From Lentilactobacillus laojiaonis (GTDB lineage: Bacteria > Bacillota > Bacilli > Lactobacillales > Lactobacillaceae), in assembly GCF_020616595.1 (NCBI RefSeq), contig NZ_CP085278.1, positions 1,178,001-1,242,000 of the forward strand: DNA of 64,000 nucleotides. The letters run 5' to 3'. Shown piece after piece: positions 14,585 through 60,242 of the stretch. The notes under the pieces are model-generated. The model had not been told where the DNA came from. It did no database searches and was given only the letters and a program-made list of their open reading frames with translations. A program made the translations under genes and the position numbers. Numbering within the stretch: the first letter of the stretch is position 1; each line of letters opens with the position of its first letter.

Positions 14585-15388
14585 ATGAAAAATAAAAAAA
14601 TTCAAACATTAGTAGTTGCAATTATCTTATTATTTGGTGGGTACTTTACAGATAAAGCCATTAACCACGGGAATAACACTACCGTTAGTAATGTAGTCAA
14701 TAAATTTACTAAATCAAATACTGAAATTTCCAGTAATAAAGAAGAGGATTTAGCTAAACTTAATTACCAATCTGGTGCAAATCCGGTGGTTGAAATTAAT
14801 CACAACCAATCAACCTTAGATCCTAATAGTTGGCATACCAACAAAGTTAATTATCAGGATCTTGACCAACTTAACCGAACTAGTAGCTATAATATCGGCT
14901 ACTTAGAAAATCGGAATATTGCTTCCGGGGATTTACGAGTTCGTCAATATGTTAATCCCACTGGTTGGCATCAAAAATTTGTCGATGGTCAGCCTATCAT
15001 TAATCGAGGTCATATGATCGCCTATTCAATCTCTAAAGGTATTTCTCAAAGTGGTACCTATTCAGCTAGTGATTTATCGGGAGATCAAAATAATCCTAAA
15101 AATTTATTTACACAAACTGCTTTCTCTAACCAAAAATTACAGACTATTTATGAAAGCCAGGTTAGAAATGCCCTCTATCATCATAAAAAAGTTATTTTTT
15201 ACGCTCATCCCATTTTTAGAGATAATGAACGGATGGCCCGAGGGGTACATTTACAAGCAATTAGTACCGATAAATCTTTAAATTTCAATGTTTATATTTA
15301 TAACGTTCAACCTAATGTCAAATTTGATTATTTAACAGGTCGGTCAACTATCGATCGATCAATGAACGTTCCCGAACAAAATAGCTAA
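14585..15388 (+). CDS. Membrane-anchored DNA/RNA non-specific endonuclease (EndA type)
   Basis: A 267-residue exported nuclease: an N-terminal signal anchor (about 7-24), a polar link rich in Asn/Ser/Thr to about residue 60, then the beta-beta-alpha-metal nuclease domain. The catalytic motif is RGHMIAYS (141-148, His143), with the metal Asn in DQNNPKNLFTQTAFSNQ (168-184). The EndA family degrades extracellular DNA or processes it during competence in streptococci. Here no competence gene is adjacent, so scavenging of DNA or nucleotides is equally possible. Confidence 0.88.
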   Translation: MKNKKIQTLVVAIILLFGGYFTDKAINHGNNTTVSNVVNKFTKSNTEISSNKEEDLAKLNYQSGANPVVEINHNQSTLDPNSWHTNKVNYQDLDQLNRTSSYNIGYLENRNIASGDLRVRQYVNPTGWHQKFVDGQPIINRGHMIAYSISKGISQSGTYSASDLSGDQNNPKNLFTQTAFSNQKLQTIYESQVRNALYHHKKVIFYAHPIFRDNERMARGVHLQAISTDKSLNFNVYIYNVQPNVKFDYLTGRSTIDRSMNVPEQNS

Positions 15389-15389
15389 T

Positions 15390-15427
15390 AAAAAGGTCTA
15401 AAATCAATTGATTTTAGACCTTTTTAT
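15390..15427. terminator. Bidirectional terminator
   Basis: AAAAAGGTCTAAAATCAA paired with TTGATTTTAGACCTTTTT, a long perfect stem between the convergent nuclease and dehydrogenase genes. Confidence 0.9.
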
Positions 15428-16173
15428 TAGGCGCGTTGACCGCCATCGACTACAAATTCAGCCCCATTGGCAAATTTAGATTCGTCACTACCTAGGTAAA
15501 CACAAATTTCACCAATATCACGTGGTTCTCCCATGTGTCCTACTGGAATAGTGCTAATTATTTGTTCTTTATATGCTTCCGGTACAATTGCGGTATCAAT
15601 CCAACCGGGATGCACAGAATTTACTCGAATATTTAATTTTTCTTGAGCTAATGATAGGGCCGTAGCATGAGTTAACATTCTCGTACCACCCTTACTTGCA
15701 GAGTAGGCCGGTGACATTGGTAAACCAACCAAGCCAGCTACTGAAGAAATATTAATAATTGAACCCTTACCATTATTGGTTGCTTTCATGGCACGAATAG
15801 CATACTTTTCACCTAAGAAATTACCAGTTAGATTAATGGAAATGATTTTATTCCAAGCATCTAAACTCATATCTTCAATCTTGCCATCAGTACCCCCGAT
15901 ACCAGCGTTATTTACTAAAATATCTACTTTACCGAACTTATCAATGGTAGCGTCCATTACCCGTTCCCATGCAGCTTCATCAGCAACATCTTGTTGAACA
16001 AAGAGAGCTTTATCTTCGCCAAATTTTTCTACAGCAGCTTTACCACCATCTACATTATGATTAGCAGTAATTACAACTTTAGCTCCTTCGTCAACAAAAC
16101 TTTGAGCTACTCCTAAACCAATTCCGGCAACTCCCCCGGTAATAATTGCAACCTTATCTTTTAAGCGATCCAT
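15427..16173 (-). CDS. SDR-family alcohol dehydrogenase, R-ADH type
   Basis: A 248-residue short-chain dehydrogenase. The Rossmann motif TGGVAGIG lies near residue 12-19, NNAG near 87-90, the catalytic Ser in NISSVAG and the Tyr/Lys in YSASKGG. The C-terminal end [14 protein letters not shown] and the VHPGWIDTA segment resemble the NADP-dependent R-specific alcohol dehydrogenase of Lactobacillus brevis. The start at 16173 follows AGGAGG at seven bases. It is a single gene. It probably reduces small ketones or aldehydes; the substrate is unknown. Confidence 0.85.
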
Positions 16174-16240
16174 AGTAATTCCTCCTAGATTTTTAATATT
16201 CACAGTTCCAGTTTAAATATTCATAATCTAAATGGCAATC

Positions 16241-16301
16241 ATTTGAATTTAATTTATTGATAAATTAGGTTATAATAAAATTGTAAATGAAAACGTTATC
16301 A
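16241..16301 (+). promoter_or_regulatory. Promoter with cre, copy A of a dispersed module
   Basis: A weak -35 TTTAAT, 17-bp spacer and -10 TATAAT (16271-16276) are followed by the cre ATGAAAACGTTATCA (16287-16301), a full consensus match. The 61-bp block recurs without gaps at 26016-26076 with 53 identical positions by my count. Confidence 0.65.
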
Positions 16302-53326: not shown

Positions 53327-54006
53327 TGCAATTTAAAAAAATTGGTATTATTGGCGCCGGTAAAGTCGGCATTGTTTTAGCTGGATTAGCTTTGCAAGCT
53401 GGTTATGAAGTGCGTATTTCTGGTTCAGGGTCCGTTAAAAAAATCGATCTTACCATTGATACTTTAGTTCCAGGCGCAATTGCAACCGAAAATGCTGATT
53501 TAATCGCTAATAGTGATCTAATTATCTTAGCCATCCCACTTAGCCGCTATAAAAATATTGCACCTAAATTATTAAAAAATAAATTAGTAATTGATGCGAT
53601 GAATTACTGGTGGGAAACTGATGGTAATCGAGAAGAAGTTCTATCTCCTGACTCAACTTCCAGTGAACAAGTTCAAAATTATTTTAAAGACAGTACAATT
53701 GTAAAAACTTTTAATCATATGGGTTACCATAATTTACAAGATGAAGCTAAGCCACAAGGTGCTCCTAACCGTAAGTCCCTTTTTGTGACGGGTGATAATC
53801 CTCAAGCCGTAGATCAAGTTGCCGAATTCGTAAATACCATGGGCTTTGATCCAGTGGTCCATTACCACCTAGAAGATGGTATTATGACTGAACCGGGTAG
53901 TCCTTTATTTGGCGCTAGTTTAAATGCAACTGATTTAAATGATGTAATTGAAAACTTTGCTGACACTGATTTTGGTAAACAAATTGCTGCTGCAAAGAAA
54001 AAATAA
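53326..54006 (+). CDS. NADP oxidoreductase, F420-dependent-like (NAD(P)-binding)
   Basis: A 226-residue Rossmann protein: IGIIGAGKVGIVLAGLALQAGYEVRISGSG (about 7-36) binds NADP, followed by ANSDLIILAIPLSRY and VIDAMNYWWETDG. The family includes F420H2:NADP oxidoreductases, but lactobacilli are not known to make F420. It may supply reduced flavin to the LLM enzyme or act as a dehydrogenase on its product. Operon with the LLM gene and a shared terminator support a joint role. Confidence 0.8.
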   Translation: MQFKKIGIIGAGKVGIVLAGLALQAGYEVRISGSGSVKKIDLTIDTLVPGAIATENADLIANSDLIILAIPLSRYKNIAPKLLKNKLVIDAMNYWWETDGNREEVLSPDSTSSEQVQNYFKDSTIVKTFNHMGYHNLQDEAKPQGAPNRKSLFVTGDNPQAVDQVAEFVNTMGFDPVVHYHLEDGIMTEPGSPLFGASLNATDLNDVIENFADTDFGKQIAAAKKK

Positions 54007-54043
54007 AAGAGTAACTACTCAGATGAGTGGTTACTCTTTTTAT
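54005..54043 (+). terminator. Terminator of the LLM operon
   Basis: AAAAGAGTAACTACTC / GAGTGGTTACTCTTTT stem with a T run. Confidence 0.9.
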
Positions 54044-54136
54044 TTTCATTAATTATGACCGCTGATTTTCACCTAAAAAATGAACGTTAATTATTAATAT
54101 GGTATGCTAAAAAATAAACTTCTAGGGGGAATATTT

Positions 54137-54487
54137 ATGCATAGTAAAAGTTGGTGGTTGGCACTTGGTTTATTTTTATTAGGAATATCTACTTATATAT
54201 TTTTTAATTCAGATTTTTATACCGCTAATCAATTAAATTACCAAATGAATAAAATGGTTAGTCAAAAAGAATATCAAAAAATGAAAAGCATCGCTAGTAA
54301 TCAAAATACATATTCGTTTTTAAAAAATTTATCTAGTAAAAATAAATTCCAAGATACTACGGATTCACAAGGCGGATCTAATCAGGGTTTGTACTATGTT
54401 ACCGTTGTAAAAAATCAAACTCTAGATGTCTATATATGTAAAGTTAATGCCATCAATTGGCAAGTAATTTATGTTAATAAACAGTAA
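54137..54487 (+). CDS. Small membrane-anchored hypothetical protein
   Basis: A 116-residue protein that I do not recognise. One hydrophobic N-terminal helix (WWLALGLFLLGISTYIFF, about 5-22) is followed by a polar ~90-residue domain rich in Asn, Lys and Ser, with YYVTVVKNQTLDVYICKV near the end. It is probably anchored outside the cell. AGGGGGA precedes ATG 54137; the earlier ATG at 54104 has no ribosome binding site. The gene stands alone between terminators. Confidence 0.65.
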   Translation: MHSKSWWLALGLFLLGISTYIFFNSDFYTANQLNYQMNKMVSQKEYQKMKSIASNQNTYSFLKNLSSKNKFQDTTDSQGGSNQGLYYVTVVKNQTLDVYICKVNAINWQVIYVNKQ

Positions 54488-54525
54488 TCTGAAGGTTATT
54501 TAGGAGCTTAATGGAATGATTTAAA

Positions 54526-54563
54526 AATAAAAAGAGAACTCCATTTAGAGTTCTCTTTTTTAA
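54526..54563. terminator. Bidirectional terminator
   Basis: AAAAGAGAACTC / GAGTTCTCTTTT stem between the small membrane protein gene and the end of the SIR2 gene. Confidence 0.88.
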
Positions 54564-54658
54564 GTTATAGAGTAAATATAATTTTAATTCATAAATATAT
54601 TATCATTCAAAAAAGTATTTTTTAAAATTTTATTACTGATGACAGGTTGTTACTTATT

Positions 54659-57600
54659 TTAACAAAATTCACTCATAAGCTTATCCATTTCATCTTGGGA
54701 AATAACATTTTTAGCCTCATTCAATATTTTTGATATATTATCTTTCAATCCCGCATCTAATAACCTTTCTAAAATATTTGATATTTGAATAATTACGGTT
54801 TCATTTACTAATAATAAATTTCTAGAAAAAATTGTTTTTATACAATTTCCAATTAAAATTAGTTGTTCTGTATTAACTTCATCAATTCCAGGAATATAAC
54901 TAAAAATATATTGATTTACTTTTTCATCTTTTGTAATTTTTACATTATTAATAATATTTATTAGCTGGTTTCCTCTCTCAATTGATATATTTGATAAATC
55001 TCTTAGTAAGTTAGATACTGCAGTATTCACTGTACCAGAATAGTTATTAATAAACCATTCAATCCACTCTGATGCATTATAATTGCCTGAATCTTCTTGC
55101 TTAAGAAAGAACTTTATTAATTGAATAAATACTGACGACTTAATAGAATTCATATGCTTATTTTTTTTAACTTCTTGATTATATTCTGGATTTAGTGAGG
55201 TAAGCATAATTACAGTCACATTATTAATTATCGCTTGAAAATCATCAATTTCTGATTTTAATAACTCATTAACCACATTTTTATATTTTTCTGACCATTT
55301 TTTTTCACCTAAATAAATTCTATAATTATGAGAAAATCCCATAAAACCTGAACTTGTAATAATTTCCTTGTCATCTTCAAATTCAGTAGCAAACATACCT
55401 TTTAAATAACATCGATAATTATAATTTTTTTGTTCCTTAATATAATTTTTAAGATGTAATTTATTTTTATCCGAAATCACATTTTTATATTTTTTTTCAA
55501 TTTCTTTAACCAAATAATAATAAATACCGCTTTTAGAATTAAGGAAACTATTATAATTATCAAGAATATTTGGAATTTCTAGATCAGATGGATCAATATT
55601 AAACAAAAAATTATAAATCTTTGCATTTTTATCATTTTGAGCTTTTTGAATCATTTTAAGAAATAAATCTTCATTTGAAATGGTAAACGCTAATTGTTTA
55701 TTACCTGATAATTTTTTTAAAAAAAGATCAGATATATATTGTACATCATATTCATTTTCTAATGCAAAATATAACATATCAACAATAACAGAAAAATAAT
55801 TTTCAAATAGAAATTCATCATTAATTAGATTTTCAATAAATTTGATATTTTGATTCCGGTAATTTTCCCACTGGCTTTTATTATTTAAAACTGACTCTAA
55901 TTTCCCGTACTGACCAGTAAATCCAATATTAACAAAGCTATCTCCAATCTCGATATCTTTTTCAACTGATTCTTCTCTCAATTTAGTTACTAGATCATTC
56001 ACCTGTTGATCATTTTTTATCGGTTGAACATTAAAAAATGCTTGTTCTTTTACAATAGACATTGGAGTAACTACATAGTCATCATCAATATAGTAAAATG
56101 AATCTTTAGGAATAAGATTATGTTTTTCAGAAAATTTAATTATATTTGATCCTAAATAGCTGTTATTTATATCTATTTTTTCTATTAAACGATCTAATAT
56201 TTCAGAATTTAGATTATTCTCCAGGTCAATACTTATTAAAATTCTCTGTACTAAAATAATTTCATAAAAAGAATCTGGAAAAATTTGTTGTTTATCATAT
56301 GTTATCTTGCCAGACTTTATAAGCCAACTTAAGTTTTTAACTATTGTATCTTCTAAAAGATAAGACATACTTGCATTTTTTTTATTTTGTTGAAAATCTT
56401 TCATTTCTTTTTCAAAATAATGTAATGTATCTTGATTAAAGTCAAAAGAAATATCATCGGATAATCTATAGTATAGATAACCATTCTTCGTAAAATTAAC
56501 TTGGTGACTTAACCATAAACACCTAATATCCTGATCCTGTATTTCATTATCTATATAGGTAATATTTAACATTTTATCAAGTATTTCATTTAAATTGCTA
56601 ACCCTATTTTCTGATAATTCATCTACGTATTGTGATACTATATTAAAAATAATTTTAATAAAATGTATATTGTCTACAATTCCAATACTTTTAATTTCAT
56701 ATATAATTTTTTCTTTAAATTTTGAACTAAGAAGTGGAAATATTTTTTCGATACATTTCCAATATTCAATAAAATATGGTTTGATTGCTGTATGATTGTC
56801 AAAGAGTAAACTTTCAGCAGTATATTCAATGTTCCTTATTTCTACTTCTTGAGGTAATTCTTTGTATTTTTTAAAGATTGAATCTATAACATAATAAGAT
56901 TTAGAATCAATCGCTTCATTAAGTAATTTTATAAAATTTTCTTTATTTTCACCTGATAAAAGTACTTTTTCTAACTCGTCAGGATTTGGTAAAAAGGACA
57001 TCTCTAAATCATGTACAGACTTAGATAAATCAGAAACGAATACTGGCAAATCAGAATAATCATTTCCATACCAAATAAAATTAACATTTTGTTCTTGGAT
57101 ATAGTAATCTTGTATTACCGAGTTATGAAATTTAATTTCTTCAGGTATATAACCATTATCATCATATTTCATTAATGCGTAATATTGAATATTTAATTCA
57201 TTAAATTGTAATAAGTTTAATACTTCATCCTCTTCCATACTACAGCCAACATAAATAATCACAGGATTTTTTTTATCCAAAAATATTTTTTTTATGCTAT
57301 TCCTTACACGATTTTCTTTTAAATATAAGTCAGTATATGACTTGGAAGAACTAATCACTCTAGATAAATTATTTGAAGGTAACCCATGTAAATGGATCAC
57401 TGTATTAAATGCTACATTATCTTCAATAGAAAAAGCATCCGGAATTACCCTTGGACTTCTTCCTAAAATAGATCGATAAGAATTCTCAATCTCCTCATCA
57501 TAATTAGTTGTAATAAATGATGAATTTAGTTTAACCAACTCATTTAAAATTAAATTTTCATGTAATAAAGGTTCTTCTTCAGAAAAAATGAATTTTTCAC

Positions 57601-57976
57601 ATTCTAAATAGTAGTATTTATATAATTCTTCAGTTTTTCTATTATTACCAGTATCACAATATTTTTTTACAATAAAATTTACAAGATCAACTTTACGCTT
57701 ATTAGACTGTGATGAATCATTTAAACTTCTAAGAAACAAAACATCATTTCTGTCTACCCTATTAATTAAGGTATCTGAATTATCAGTTATCGTTTTTAAA
57801 CTAGAACTCCAGTAATCAATTAGTTCTTGAACATAATCATTCCAATTTGGATATCCCTGGGATATGGAAACACCAGCACCAACCACACATATAAGAGAAC
57901 CCTCACGACGTGCATTTACAATGTCATTCGTTAATTTAATAATTGTATCTTTTGAATTATATTTACTCAAATTCAC
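54659..57976 (-). CDS. Large SIR2-domain protein, probable NAD-consuming phage-defence effector
   Basis: A 1105-residue protein. The N-terminal ~310 residues are SIR2-like: CVVGAGVSISQGYPNW (30-45), SSFITTNYDEEIE (152-164), VIHLHGLPS (193-201, candidate catalytic His197) and IIYVGCSMEEDEVL (240-253). The remaining ~800 residues are charged, helical and without recognised domains. This matches the DSR-type plan of a sensor fused to a SIR2 NADase. The gene is visibly more AT-rich than its neighbours. The GTG start follows ATGAGGT. It lies 56 bp behind rlmH on the same strand with no terminator between. Defence function is inferred. Confidence 0.72.
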   Translation of the reverse strand: MNLSKYNSKDTIIKLTNDIVNARREGSLICVVGAGVSISQGYPNWNDYVQELIDYWSSSLKTITDNSDTLINRVDRNDVLFLRSLNDSSQSNKRKVDLVNFIVKKYCDTGNNRKTEELYKYYYLECEKFIFSEEEPLLHENLILNELVKLNSSFITTNYDEEIENSYRSILGRSPRVIPDAFSIEDNVAFNTVIHLHGLPSNNLSRVISSSKSYTDLYLKENRVRNSIKKIFLDKKNPVIIYVGCSMEEDEVLNLLQFNELNIQYYALMKYDDNGYIPEEIKFHNSVIQDYYIQEQNVNFIWYGNDYSDLPVFVSDLSKSVHDLEMSFLPNPDELEKVLLSGENKENFIKLLNEAIDSKSYYVIDSIFKKYKELPQEVEIRNIEYTAESLLFDNHTAIKPYFIEYWKCIEKIFPLLSSKFKEKIIYEIKSIGIVDNIHFIKIIFNIVSQYVDELSENRVSNLNEILDKMLNITYIDNEIQDQDIRCLWLSHQVNFTKNGYLYYRLSDDISFDFNQDTLHYFEKEMKDFQQNKKNASMSYLLEDTIVKNLSWLIKSGKITYDKQQIFPDSFYEIILVQRILISIDLENNLNSEILDRLIEKIDINNSYLGSNIIKFSEKHNLIPKDSFYYIDDDYVVTPMSIVKEQAFFNVQPIKNDQQVNDLVTKLREESVEKDIEIGDSFVNIGFTGQYGKLESVLNNKSQWENYRNQNIKFIENLINDEFLFENYFSVIVDMLYFALENEYDVQYISDLFLKKLSGNKQLAFTISNEDLFLKMIQKAQNDKNAKIYNFLFNIDPSDLEIPNILDNYNSFLNSKSGIYYYLVKEIEKKYKNVISDKNKLHLKNYIKEQKNYNYRCYLKGMFATEFEDDKEIITSSGFMGFSHNYRIYLGEKKWSEKYKNVVNELLKSEIDDFQAIINNVTVIMLTSLNPEYNQEVKKNKHMNSIKSSVFIQLIKFFLKQEDSGNYNASEWIEWFINNYSGTVNTAVSNLLRDLSNISIERGNQLINIINNVKITKDEKVNQYIFSYIPGIDEVNTEQLILIGNCIKTIFSRNLLLVNETVIIQISNILERLLDAGLKDNISKILNEAKNVISQDEMDKLMSEFC

Positions 57977-58032
57977 TAAATATTACCTCATTTTGTTTTT
58001 AACTATCATATATTTATAAAATATTCACCTAA

Positions 58033-58512
58033 TCACTTATGATACGGACTACCTTCATTAATCATAAAGGCGCGGTAAATTTGTTCGGTTAATACTAAAC
58101 GCATCAATTGATGTGGCAAGGTGAATCTACCAAATGAAATCTGGGTATCAGCACGCTTTAAGACGTCCTGAGACATCCCTAACGATCCCCCAATAACAAA
58201 GGTAATATCAGATTTACCATAGGTAACCAAGTTATCGATTTCTTTAGCAAACTCCTCAGAAGAACGTTCTTTACCTAAAATGGCTAGGGCATAGACGTAC
58301 TCTTTATCCTTAATTTTAGCTAAAATGCGTTCACCTTCTCGTTTCATCACGTCTTCCATTTGATGCTCACTTAAAGATTCGGGAGCTTTTTCATCGGGAA
58401 CTTCCACAATTTCAAATTTGCAAAATCTAGATAACCGTTTAGCATATTCTTCAATGCCCTTTTTTAAATATTTTTCCTTTAACTTTCCGACCACAATTAA
58501 CTTAATATTCAT
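58033..58512 (-). CDS. rlmH: 23S rRNA (pseudouridine1915-N3)-methyltransferase
   Basis: A 159-residue SPOUT methyltransferase that methylates pseudouridine 1915 in helix 69. It begins [27 protein letters not shown], has the SAM-binding [10 protein letters not shown] (about 105-114) and ends [14 protein letters not shown], as in the family. AAAGGAATAAATTTGA precedes the start. In staphylococci the 3' end of this gene is the SCC integration site. Here the DNA directly behind the stop carries a SIR2 gene, but no flanking repeat of the 3' end was found. Confidence 0.95.
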
Positions 58513-58561
58513 TCAAATTTATTCCTTTCACCGGCTTGTCAACTATTTTGCCTGTAAATTT

Positions 58562-58853
58562 TTATCCACAAGTTATCCACAAGTTCGCAATTTAGATTTG
58601 GATTTCGTTTTTTCAGTCAATTTTCAAATTGATTTTTTTAAGCGAAAACTTTTCCACAGCCAAGTTTTTTTAACATGTTCGTCTTTACATTTTAAAACCC
58701 TTTTAAATCAACGATCATTAGATTTTTTCAGGCGAACAAATCTAAAATTATATAGTTATCCACAGGCAACTGTTGATAACTTTTAAGTTTTTTTGAACTA
58801 ATTTTTGACCTATTTTTAAACTAGTTAATTAGTTATCCACATAGTTATCCACA
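58562..58853. other. DnaA-box cluster between rlmH and htrA
   Basis: Five exact TTATCCACA boxes lie on the plus strand (58562-58570, 58573-58581, 58756-58764, 58833-58841, 58845-58853). Two one-mismatch boxes follow: TTTTCCACA (58650-58658) and, on the minus strand, TTATCAACA (58771-58779). All but one point the same way. The 450-bp region has no gene. It could titrate DnaA or be a secondary initiator-binding site; no dnaA gene is in the window. Confidence 0.75.
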
Positions 58854-58930
58854 AGCTAATTACAAACGTTTCCACTTAAATTACCACTAAGTTGTTCGAC
58901 TTTTTTAATTATATAACATTTGATGCCAAA

Positions 58931-58960
58931 TAAAAAACTGACCTAAATTAGGTCAGTTTT
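58931..58960 (-). terminator. Terminator of htrA
   Basis: AAACTGACC / GGTCAGTTT stem with a T run on the minus strand. Confidence 0.88.
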
Positions 58961-58964
58961 CTTT

Positions 58965-60242
58965 TTAGTCACTAGTTGATTTACTTAAGACAATATTTCC
59001 AGTTTCTTTTTTACCATTATGGTAATAAGTTACGGAAACTGTTTCGCCAACTTTGTGTTCATACAATATATCACGCAATCCAGTTTGACTAGTAATCTTT
59101 TTACCGCCAAGCTCTGTAATAACGTCATATTTAGCCAAACCAGCCTTCTTAGCTGGAGAACCTGCTGAAGCTTTATAAACTACCGCACCACTTTGAACAC
59201 TGCTTGGAAGTTTTAAGATACTTGACTGTTGTTCTTCTGAAATATTTGAAAGATCAATATAGCTAATTCCTAAGGAAGGTCGGCTAACAGATCCATTAGT
59301 AATTAATTGGTTAATAATTTCGACCACTTCATTACTTGGAATTGAGAAGCCCATTCCTTCAACACTATCCCCAGAATTATCACTAGCTAATTTCATTGAA
59401 TTAATCCCAATCACTTGGCCGTCCAAATTAATTAGCGGACCACCTGAATTTCCGGGATTAATTGCAGCATCCGTTTGAATAACGGTCGCATTACCGATTT
59501 GTTGGCCACTTGAAGAAGTTTGCGGAACTTCGCGTTTCTTCGCTGAGATAATACCTTGAGTAACCGAAGTTGCATAATCGGAACCCAGTGGTGAACCAAT
59601 CGCTAAGACTGGTTCAGCCACCTTAATTTTATCGGAATTTCCAAATGAAGCGACTTGGGTGATCTTATCAGAATTAACTTTTAAAACTGCTAAATCAGTT
59701 ACTTCATCCTTACCGACAATTTTAGCCGAGATCTTTTGGCCGTTACTTAAAATAATTTCCAACGAATTAGATCCTTCGACCACGTGGTTATTAGTAACGA
59801 TATAAGCATCATTACCATCTTTCTTATAGATAACTCCGGATCCTTCACTAGCCGTCTCTAATTCACTATTACTTGATGATTTAGATTGGGATGAAGAATC
59901 TTCTGAGTCATCATTACCAAACAAGCTGGAAGAATTACTATTGGATTTAGAATTACTTCCACCAAATAGACTGGCTAAGCCATTATCTTCACTTTGTTGT
60001 TTCTGTAGATTAATTACGGAAACTACCGCGTTTTTGGTTGAGTTAAAAGCTTTTTCAGACTGAGTAGATACATTGACACTAACATTGCTAACTTTAGTAG
60101 TTCCATTACTATTAGAGTTAGTAATTAAGTTGCTATTATCGGATGCATTCCGGTTTAATATTGATGCACCACCATAAGCTGCACCTCCGCCGATTAATCC
60201 AGCAATAAGGGCAGCAAGTACTGTTTTACTTTGACTTTTCAT
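58965..60242 (-). CDS. htrA: HtrA-type membrane-anchored serine protease (DegP/HtrA)
   Basis: A 425-residue surface protease. It has an N-terminal anchor (about 8-28), a long Ser/Asn linker (about 35-130), a trypsin-like domain with His153 (IVTNNHVVEGS), Asp183 (TDLAVLKV) and Ser266 (NPGNSGGPL), and one PDZ domain (about 320-415). It degrades misfolded secreted proteins. It is the last gene of the wal cluster in lactobacilli. A 19-bp imperfect inverted repeat covers its ribosome binding site. Confidence 0.96.
   Translation of the reverse strand: MKSQSKTVLAALIAGLIGGGAAYGGASILNRNASDNSNLITNSNSNGTTKVSNVSVNVSTQSEKAFNSTKNAVVSVINLQKQQSEDNGLASLFGGSNSKSNSNSSSLFGNDDSEDSSSQSKSSSNSELETASEGSGVIYKKDGNDAYIVTNNHVVEGSNSLEIILSNGQKISAKIVGKDEVTDLAVLKVNSDKITQVASFGNSDKIKVAEPVLAIGSPLGSDYATSVTQGIISAKKREVPQTSSSGQQIGNATVIQTDAAINPGNSGGPLINLDGQVIGINSMKLASDNSGDSVEGMGFSIPSNEVVEIINQLITNGSVSRPSLGISYIDLSNISEEQQSSILKLPSSVQSGAVVYKASAGSPAKKAGLAKYDVITELGGKKITSQTGLRDILYEHKVGETVSVTYYHNGKKETGNIVLSKSTSD

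Follow-up and report, generated by a model that had tools for sequence, protein, structure and literature searches.

DnaA boxes between rlmH and htrA

The DNA analysed here, a stretch of 64 kb that we call the window, corresponds to C1:1178001-1242000 of the single 1,242,019-bp contig of Lentilactobacillus laojiaonis. In the window, rlmH and an htrA-like serine protease gene are separated by a gap of 452 bp (58513-58964) with a GC content of 28%, and this gap contains a cluster of likely binding sites (boxes) for DnaA, the initiator protein of chromosome replication (Table 1). The protease was also matched by the NCBIfam HtrA models, all below cut-off. Among the listed ORFs of at least 80 aa, no credible gene was found within 58513-58964. 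The only ORF of this size across the gap (58418-58786, plus strand, TTG start) overlaps the beginning of rlmH in antisense orientation and was rejected as a gene. An Rfam search of positions 58400-59100 gave no match to an RNA element.

Table 1. Coordinates of the genes flanking the gap and of the features within it (window positions)
Feature	Position	Strand	Remark
rlmH (23S rRNA pseudouridine-1915 methyltransferase)	58033..58512	-	Downstream of the cluster; NF000985 match over cut-off
Exact DnaA box TTATCCACA	58562..58570	+	Sequence match
Exact DnaA box TTATCCACA	58573..58581	+	Tandem with 58562, 11 bp start to start
One-mismatch DnaA box TTTTCCACA	58650..58658	+	Sequence match
Promoter-like site TCAACA-18-TATAAT toward rlmH	58747..58776	-	Overlapped by boxes 58756 and 58771
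Exact DnaA box TTATCCACA	58756..58764	+	Inverted neighbour of 58771
One-mismatch DnaA box TTATCAACA	58771..58779	-	Sequence match
Exact DnaA box TTATCCACA	58833..58841	+	Sequence match
Exact DnaA box TTATCCACA	58845..58853	+	Tandem with 58833, 12 bp start to start
Terminator-like hairpin	58934..58960	+	htrA end of the gap
htrA-like serine protease	58965..60242	-	Upstream of the cluster; trypsin and PDZ domains over Pfam cut-offs

A first-pass annotation of the window had described five exact and two one-mismatch boxes within about 300 bp of gene-free DNA, mostly in one orientation, and had considered five exact 9-mers improbable by chance. The listing of boxes and ORFs agrees with this description: all five exact boxes lie on the plus strand, and the one-mismatch boxes lie one on each strand. 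The spacings of the two tandem pairs (11 and 12 bp) correspond to approximately one helical turn. The expectation of rarity was also borne out. The 64-kb window contains five exact matches to TTATCCACA, all of them in the gap, while 100 dinucleotide shuffles of the whole window gave a mean of 0.75 exact matches, with none of the 100 reaching five, and a mean of 21.2 matches at up to one mismatch. For a stretch as long as the gap (452 bp), this corresponds to approximately 0.005 exact matches and 0.15 matches at up to one mismatch, compared with the five and seven seen.

The promoter-like site that faces rlmH is the only one in the gap, and this number is not above chance, as 2.7 such sites were expected in shuffles. 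An alignment of this locus with 17 related ones, inspected by eye, showed a better promoter, TTGTTY-17-TGnTATAAT, at the corresponding place in many of them; this promoter is lost in the window.

Directly downstream of rlmH, a gene on the minus strand (54659-57976) encodes a protein of 1105 aa with a SIR2-like domain (PF13289). The region around it (54001-58000) has a GC content of 24-25%, compared with 34% for the window. The gene looks recently acquired and is perhaps a defence gene; PADLOC gave no match for it, and no second copy of the 18-base 3' end of rlmH was found in the window at up to three mismatches.

Boxes in the whole chromosome

Altogether 31 exact boxes (17 forward, 14 reverse) were found in the chromosome. 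Ten of them belong to the dnaA region (9.6-18.5 kb) and five to the rlmH gap, and 16 are scattered. Clusters of exact boxes in the 1.24-Mb chromosome thus occur at oriC and in the rlmH gap only; this uniqueness applies to exact boxes, and clusters of degenerate boxes may exist elsewhere. Exact boxes in the same direction and at most 30 bp apart were found genome-wide only as the two pairs in the rlmH gap. Three further genomes of the genus gave the same picture: at least three exact boxes per approximately 300 bp were present only at dnaA and at rlmH. With several boxes within a few hundred bp outside oriC, the locus has the make-up of a Bacillus-type DnaA-box cluster. In the dnaA region itself, exact boxes at L034 9600, 11885, 12421 and 14402 fall inside gyrA-, gyrB-, recF- and dnaN-like ORFs beside oriC, as judged by eye.

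Distance to the origin

The gene dnaA, which according to the first-pass annotation is not beside the cluster in the window, is indeed located outside the window, at 14945-16252 of the contig and some 20-22 kb from the cluster across the contig join. Across the two contig ends, a single frame of 623 residues can be read that by eye looks like a WalK-type kinase, and the response regulator next to it matches NF040534 (YycF) over cut-off. Because its ends join in one walK-like frame, the contig closes, and the cluster lies approximately 20.2 kb from the dnaA-dnaN gap. The genes of the dnaA region (gyrA, gyrB, recF, dnaN, dnaA) were named by eye, and oriC was located between dnaA and dnaN. Here, tandem boxes precede GGCCC, TACTATTACTACT and an extended AT tract, a layout that we take to be that of the B. 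subtilis unwinding region. At 1.24 Mb, the genome is small, and its completeness was rated at 88.8% despite the closing contig; genome reduction may be the reason.

The many boxes near oriC and the AT-rich DNA of the gap (28% GC) could indicate a second or auxiliary replication origin, and an extra origin-like region had been one of the suggestions of the first-pass annotation. This did not hold. Neither a DnaA-trio array nor a strongly AT-rich unwinding element was found in the rlmH gap, in contrast to the dnaA-dnaN gap; the lowest GC content of any 40-bp segment was 0.15 in the former and 0.05 in the latter. Moreover, the GC skew, calculated in 2-kb bins, is negative in each bin from window position 54 kb to contig position 14 kb, approximately, and is positive from dnaA onwards, so the switch takes place at dnaA instead of at the cluster. 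The bin at window positions 52-54 kb, farther from dnaA, is positive. A second origin was therefore rejected as highly improbable.

Conservation upstream of rlmH

Conservation of the boxes between rlmH and htrA in relatives, proposed earlier as a check, was strongly positive. Of 80 Lactobacillaceae loci, 78 carry one or more exact boxes in the 700 bp that precede rlmH, 75 carry two or more, 68 three or more and 56 four or more. The density of exact boxes in these loci was 5.88 per kb before rlmH and 0.033 per kb over the other 450 kb, that is, 329 boxes against 15 in eightfold more flanking DNA. As a control, 1500 letter-permuted 9-mers gave a mean of 0.8 matches and at the highest 54, compared with the 329 of the box. 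At least one exact box was also present in 72 out of 91 Lactobacillales loci of a second set and in 33 out of 63 loci of other Bacilli. These counts exclude the locus of the window itself (L116); the set of 91 partly overlaps that of 80, and the added upstream stretches were chosen across families, non-randomly, from 60/198 and 39/151 genomes. Most exact boxes are antisense to rlmH in all three sets (266/329, 187/243 and 59/78). Among the titles and abstract openings that were screened, none dealt with this cluster outside B. subtilis; key papers on the topic are Ishikawa 2007, Okumura 2012 and Washington 2017.

Loci without any exact box before rlmH numbered 2/80, 19/91 and 30/63 in the three sets, and according to the per-locus list they include entire groups. 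In Secundilactobacillus similis (L059), the 700 bp contain no exact box, and five are located farther upstream, at 1.66-2.0 kb, beyond another ORF. In Lapidilactobacillus gannanensis (L111), 37 bp separate rlmH from the end of another gene, and no exact box was found in the locus of 6.5 kb. In one genus of the same family (g2), seven of the nine genomes examined have zero or one exact box and five to eight boxes with at most one mismatch; the two of these genomes that were examined in full have mixed variants, with TTTTCCACA occurring twice in each. In genome G047, the cluster is absent both at rlmH and everywhere else outside the dnaA region.

Such losses would be expected if the cluster were a neutral leftover of an ancestral site. 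This explanation is hardly compatible with the excess of boxes before rlmH over the flanking DNA, or with the retention of boxes despite rearrangement and in loci that lack the YyzF ORF (see below), and we consider it barely credible.

A LexA-like sequence, GAACNNNNGTT, was observed at approximately -167 to -184 from rlmH in many Lentilactobacillus loci, just downstream of a conserved promoter-like motif. GAAC-N4-GTTC with at most one mismatch is present in the 700 bp before rlmH in 49/80 loci, and the best control palindrome in 33/80. In the gap of the window, the site is degenerate and no LexA-like site was found.

Correspondence to a DnaA-bound region of B. subtilis

We take the B. subtilis gene yydA to be rlmH, which agrees with the synteny of YyzF and RlmH. 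An ORF of the YyzF family was found directly before rlmH in at least 38 of the 63 loci of other Bacilli and in at least eight of the 91 Lactobacillales loci, both being lower bounds that result from a strict pattern. A search with the SSS motif had given nothing, and a looser pattern found the ORFs; those tested by profile matched TIGR04129 (6/6) and PF14116 (5/5). As a YyzF ORF stands just before rlmH in many Bacilli, the cluster locus is that of the B. subtilis DnaA region 8. According to PMC4447404, region 8 lies upstream of yydA, spans yyzF, contains seven sites and is among the eight regions bound by DnaA in vivo in B. subtilis, with Kd values of 0.16 µM for ATP-DnaA and 0.33 µM for ADP-DnaA. 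The set yyzF-yydABCD is also listed among the directly regulated sets in PMC8203912.

The proposal of the first-pass annotation that the boxes form a DnaA-box cluster of the Bacillus kind is thus supported by position, since the cluster is situated upstream of yydA/rlmH, in the yyzF region, as is the known one. The two are alike in locus by synteny, in having seven sites and in lying outside oriC. They differ in that no YyzF ORF was found in the L. laojiaonis gap, and in the distance to oriC: the cluster lies approximately 20 kb away in L. laojiaonis, and the B. subtilis one, at position 4113012 of the 4.2-Mb circle, some 100 kb away. Furthermore, L. laojiaonis has one extra-oriC cluster of exact boxes, whereas six such clusters are described for B. 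subtilis in PMC5295017 and PMC13220808.

With the strict pattern, a YyzF ORF was found in none of the 81 Lactobacillaceae loci, of which 76 have at least two exact boxes. On the other hand, 18 of the 63 loci of other Bacilli have the ORF with fewer than two exact boxes; the ORF and the boxes have therefore been lost independently. In L176 and L182, exact boxes upstream of rlmH are positioned within the coding sequence of the YyzF-family ORF, so that coding and binding constraints overlap there.

Linkage to rlmH, htrA and oriC

The distance between rlmH and dnaA ranged from approximately 21 to 584 kb in 51 genomes (L. laojiaonis included) that have both genes on one contig and for which the upstream stretch was at hand. 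Two or more exact boxes within 1450 bp were present in 15/15 genomes with distances below 50 kb, in 4/11 at 50-150 kb, in 8/11 at 150-300 kb and in 11/14 above 300 kb. A strict tie to oriC proximity is weakened by the 11 genomes in the last group, though the number of exact boxes falls weakly with the distance (Spearman -0.33, p 0.017, relatedness ignored).

A strict tie to htrA is weakened as well. In 25 of the 80 Lactobacillaceae loci, no htrA was recognised upstream, one of the stretches being only 657 bp long and recognition being based on the motif GNSGG only, by which some htrA genes may be missed; in 23 of these 25 loci, the cluster stays with rlmH, with at least two exact boxes. Conversely, the cluster stays with htrA in two genomes in which rlmH is separated from it, which weakens a strict tie to rlmH. 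In G060, a TrkH-type gene and a second ORF separate rlmH from the cluster, whose three exact and four one-mismatch boxes lie between the convergent 3' ends of this second ORF and an htrA-like gene. In G130, five exact and four one-mismatch boxes follow an htrA-like gene, and rlmH is located at a distance of approximately 120 kb, beside a gene that by eye resembles the same kind of transporter. No exact box was found within 800 bp upstream of rlmH in either genome. As the cluster is kept beside htrA in these two genomes, it is not just an rlmH operator, and the fact that it can part from rlmH or from htrA argues for a role of its own.

It could nevertheless be that the cluster is mainly an operator, at which DnaA represses rlmH (earlier yyzF-rlmH) and makes transcription follow the replication status, with titration as a by-product. 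This would suit the usual position of the boxes directly before rlmH, which is found even without a recognised htrA or more than 300 kb from dnaA. It would also suit the presence of an antisense box with at most one mismatch between -110 and -20 relative to the rlmH start in 75/80 Lactobacillaceae, 59/91 Lactobacillales and 32/63 other-Bacilli loci, as well as the apparent repression of the yyzF-yydD operon by DnaA in B. subtilis, as given in PMC4447404. However, the arrangements in G060 and G130 are difficult to reconcile with a main function as operator, seven boxes in 290 bp exceed the needs of an operator, and the gap of the window lacks an above-chance promoter. Taken together, we find this explanation rather unlikely.

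Proposed role of the cluster

The explanation that we favour, with slightly better than even confidence, is that the locus is an extra-oriC DnaA-box cluster, a counterpart of the B. subtilis yyzF/yydA cluster, that sequesters DnaA, limits initiation and probably also represses rlmH. We infer that cooperative binding of DnaA would begin at the two tandem pairs and extend from there to the rest of the seven boxes. The bound share of DnaA would be held away from oriC, which would restrain early re-initiation. Because the cluster lies approximately 20 kb from oriC, it would be copied almost at once after initiation, which would double its capacity and hinder a second early start. DnaA bound at the cluster would probably also lower the transcription of rlmH, as the boxes cover its upstream region.

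Against this explanation stand the loci without an exact box in all three sets, genome G047 without a cluster and the retention of boxes in only 4/11 genomes at 50-150 kb. In addition, given the range of distances between rlmH and dnaA, early duplication cannot be a general rule. Even in B. subtilis the role of such clusters is debated (PMC5295017, PMC13220808). In favour of the explanation, deletion of six such clusters in B. subtilis led to early initiation, and one cluster replaced at various places gave partial relief (PMC5295017; the six-cluster deletion is also covered in PMC13220808). On the other hand, approximately 10-fold overproduction of DnaA in B. subtilis took place without over-initiation, according to PMC13220808, which is awkward for titration.

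The tight same-strand pairs and the one inverted pair, with partly conserved spacing, could alternatively point to a site resembling datA or DARS of E. coli that changes the nucleotide state of DnaA by ATP hydrolysis or ADP release. The E. coli datA locus is presumably unrelated to the rlmH-side locus. Like the cluster described here, datA is a non-coding group of DnaA boxes outside oriC, and it restrains initiation; unlike it, datA works with IHF, which it requires, by promoting ATP hydrolysis (PMC5295017). IHF, datA and DARS are described as absent from B. subtilis in PMC13220808, and we regard a site of this type as improbable.

The cluster belongs to a known kind; what is notable is its breadth of occurrence, its separability from rlmH in two genomes and its standing as the sole extra-oriC exact-box cluster in four genomes of the same genus. 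More tentatively, and with confidence a little short of even, we propose that the rlmH-side cluster is an independent replication-control element of ancient origin and Bacilli-wide occurrence. Such an element would predate the split between Lactobacillales and the other Bacilli examined, outlive yyzF, survive removal from rlmH and work at any distance from oriC, and it would be the only extra-oriC cluster left in the genus of the window.

As a contribution to replication timing in Gram-positive bacteria, initiator titration on extra-oriC boxes is difficult to examine in B. subtilis, where six redundant clusters have to be removed. The four same-genus genomes examined have one extra-oriC exact-box cluster each. 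The persistence of the cluster after separation from rlmH suggests that it is kept for replication control and not for rlmH; if so, it would provide a single-site test of titration together with a broad comparative data set. As the sole extra-oriC cluster in this genus, an element of this kind would allow one deletion to test the titration model that took six in B. subtilis.

Other clusters

We take ywlC to encode L-threonylcarbamoyladenylate synthase. The B. subtilis ywlC/ywlB cluster and the cluster described here are both extra-oriC DnaA-box clusters; in the L. laojiaonis genome, no second extra-oriC cluster of exact boxes was found. In G062 (L271 2133-2973), eight exact DnaA boxes were observed around the start of a ywlC-type L-threonylcarbamoyladenylate synthase gene, and this is a second B. 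subtilis cluster shared with Lactobacillales. Four exact boxes were also observed in G136 (L273 1992-2902), near an integrase-like gene; they lie in and beside genes that by eye resemble those for choloylglycine hydrolase and a PHP-domain protein.
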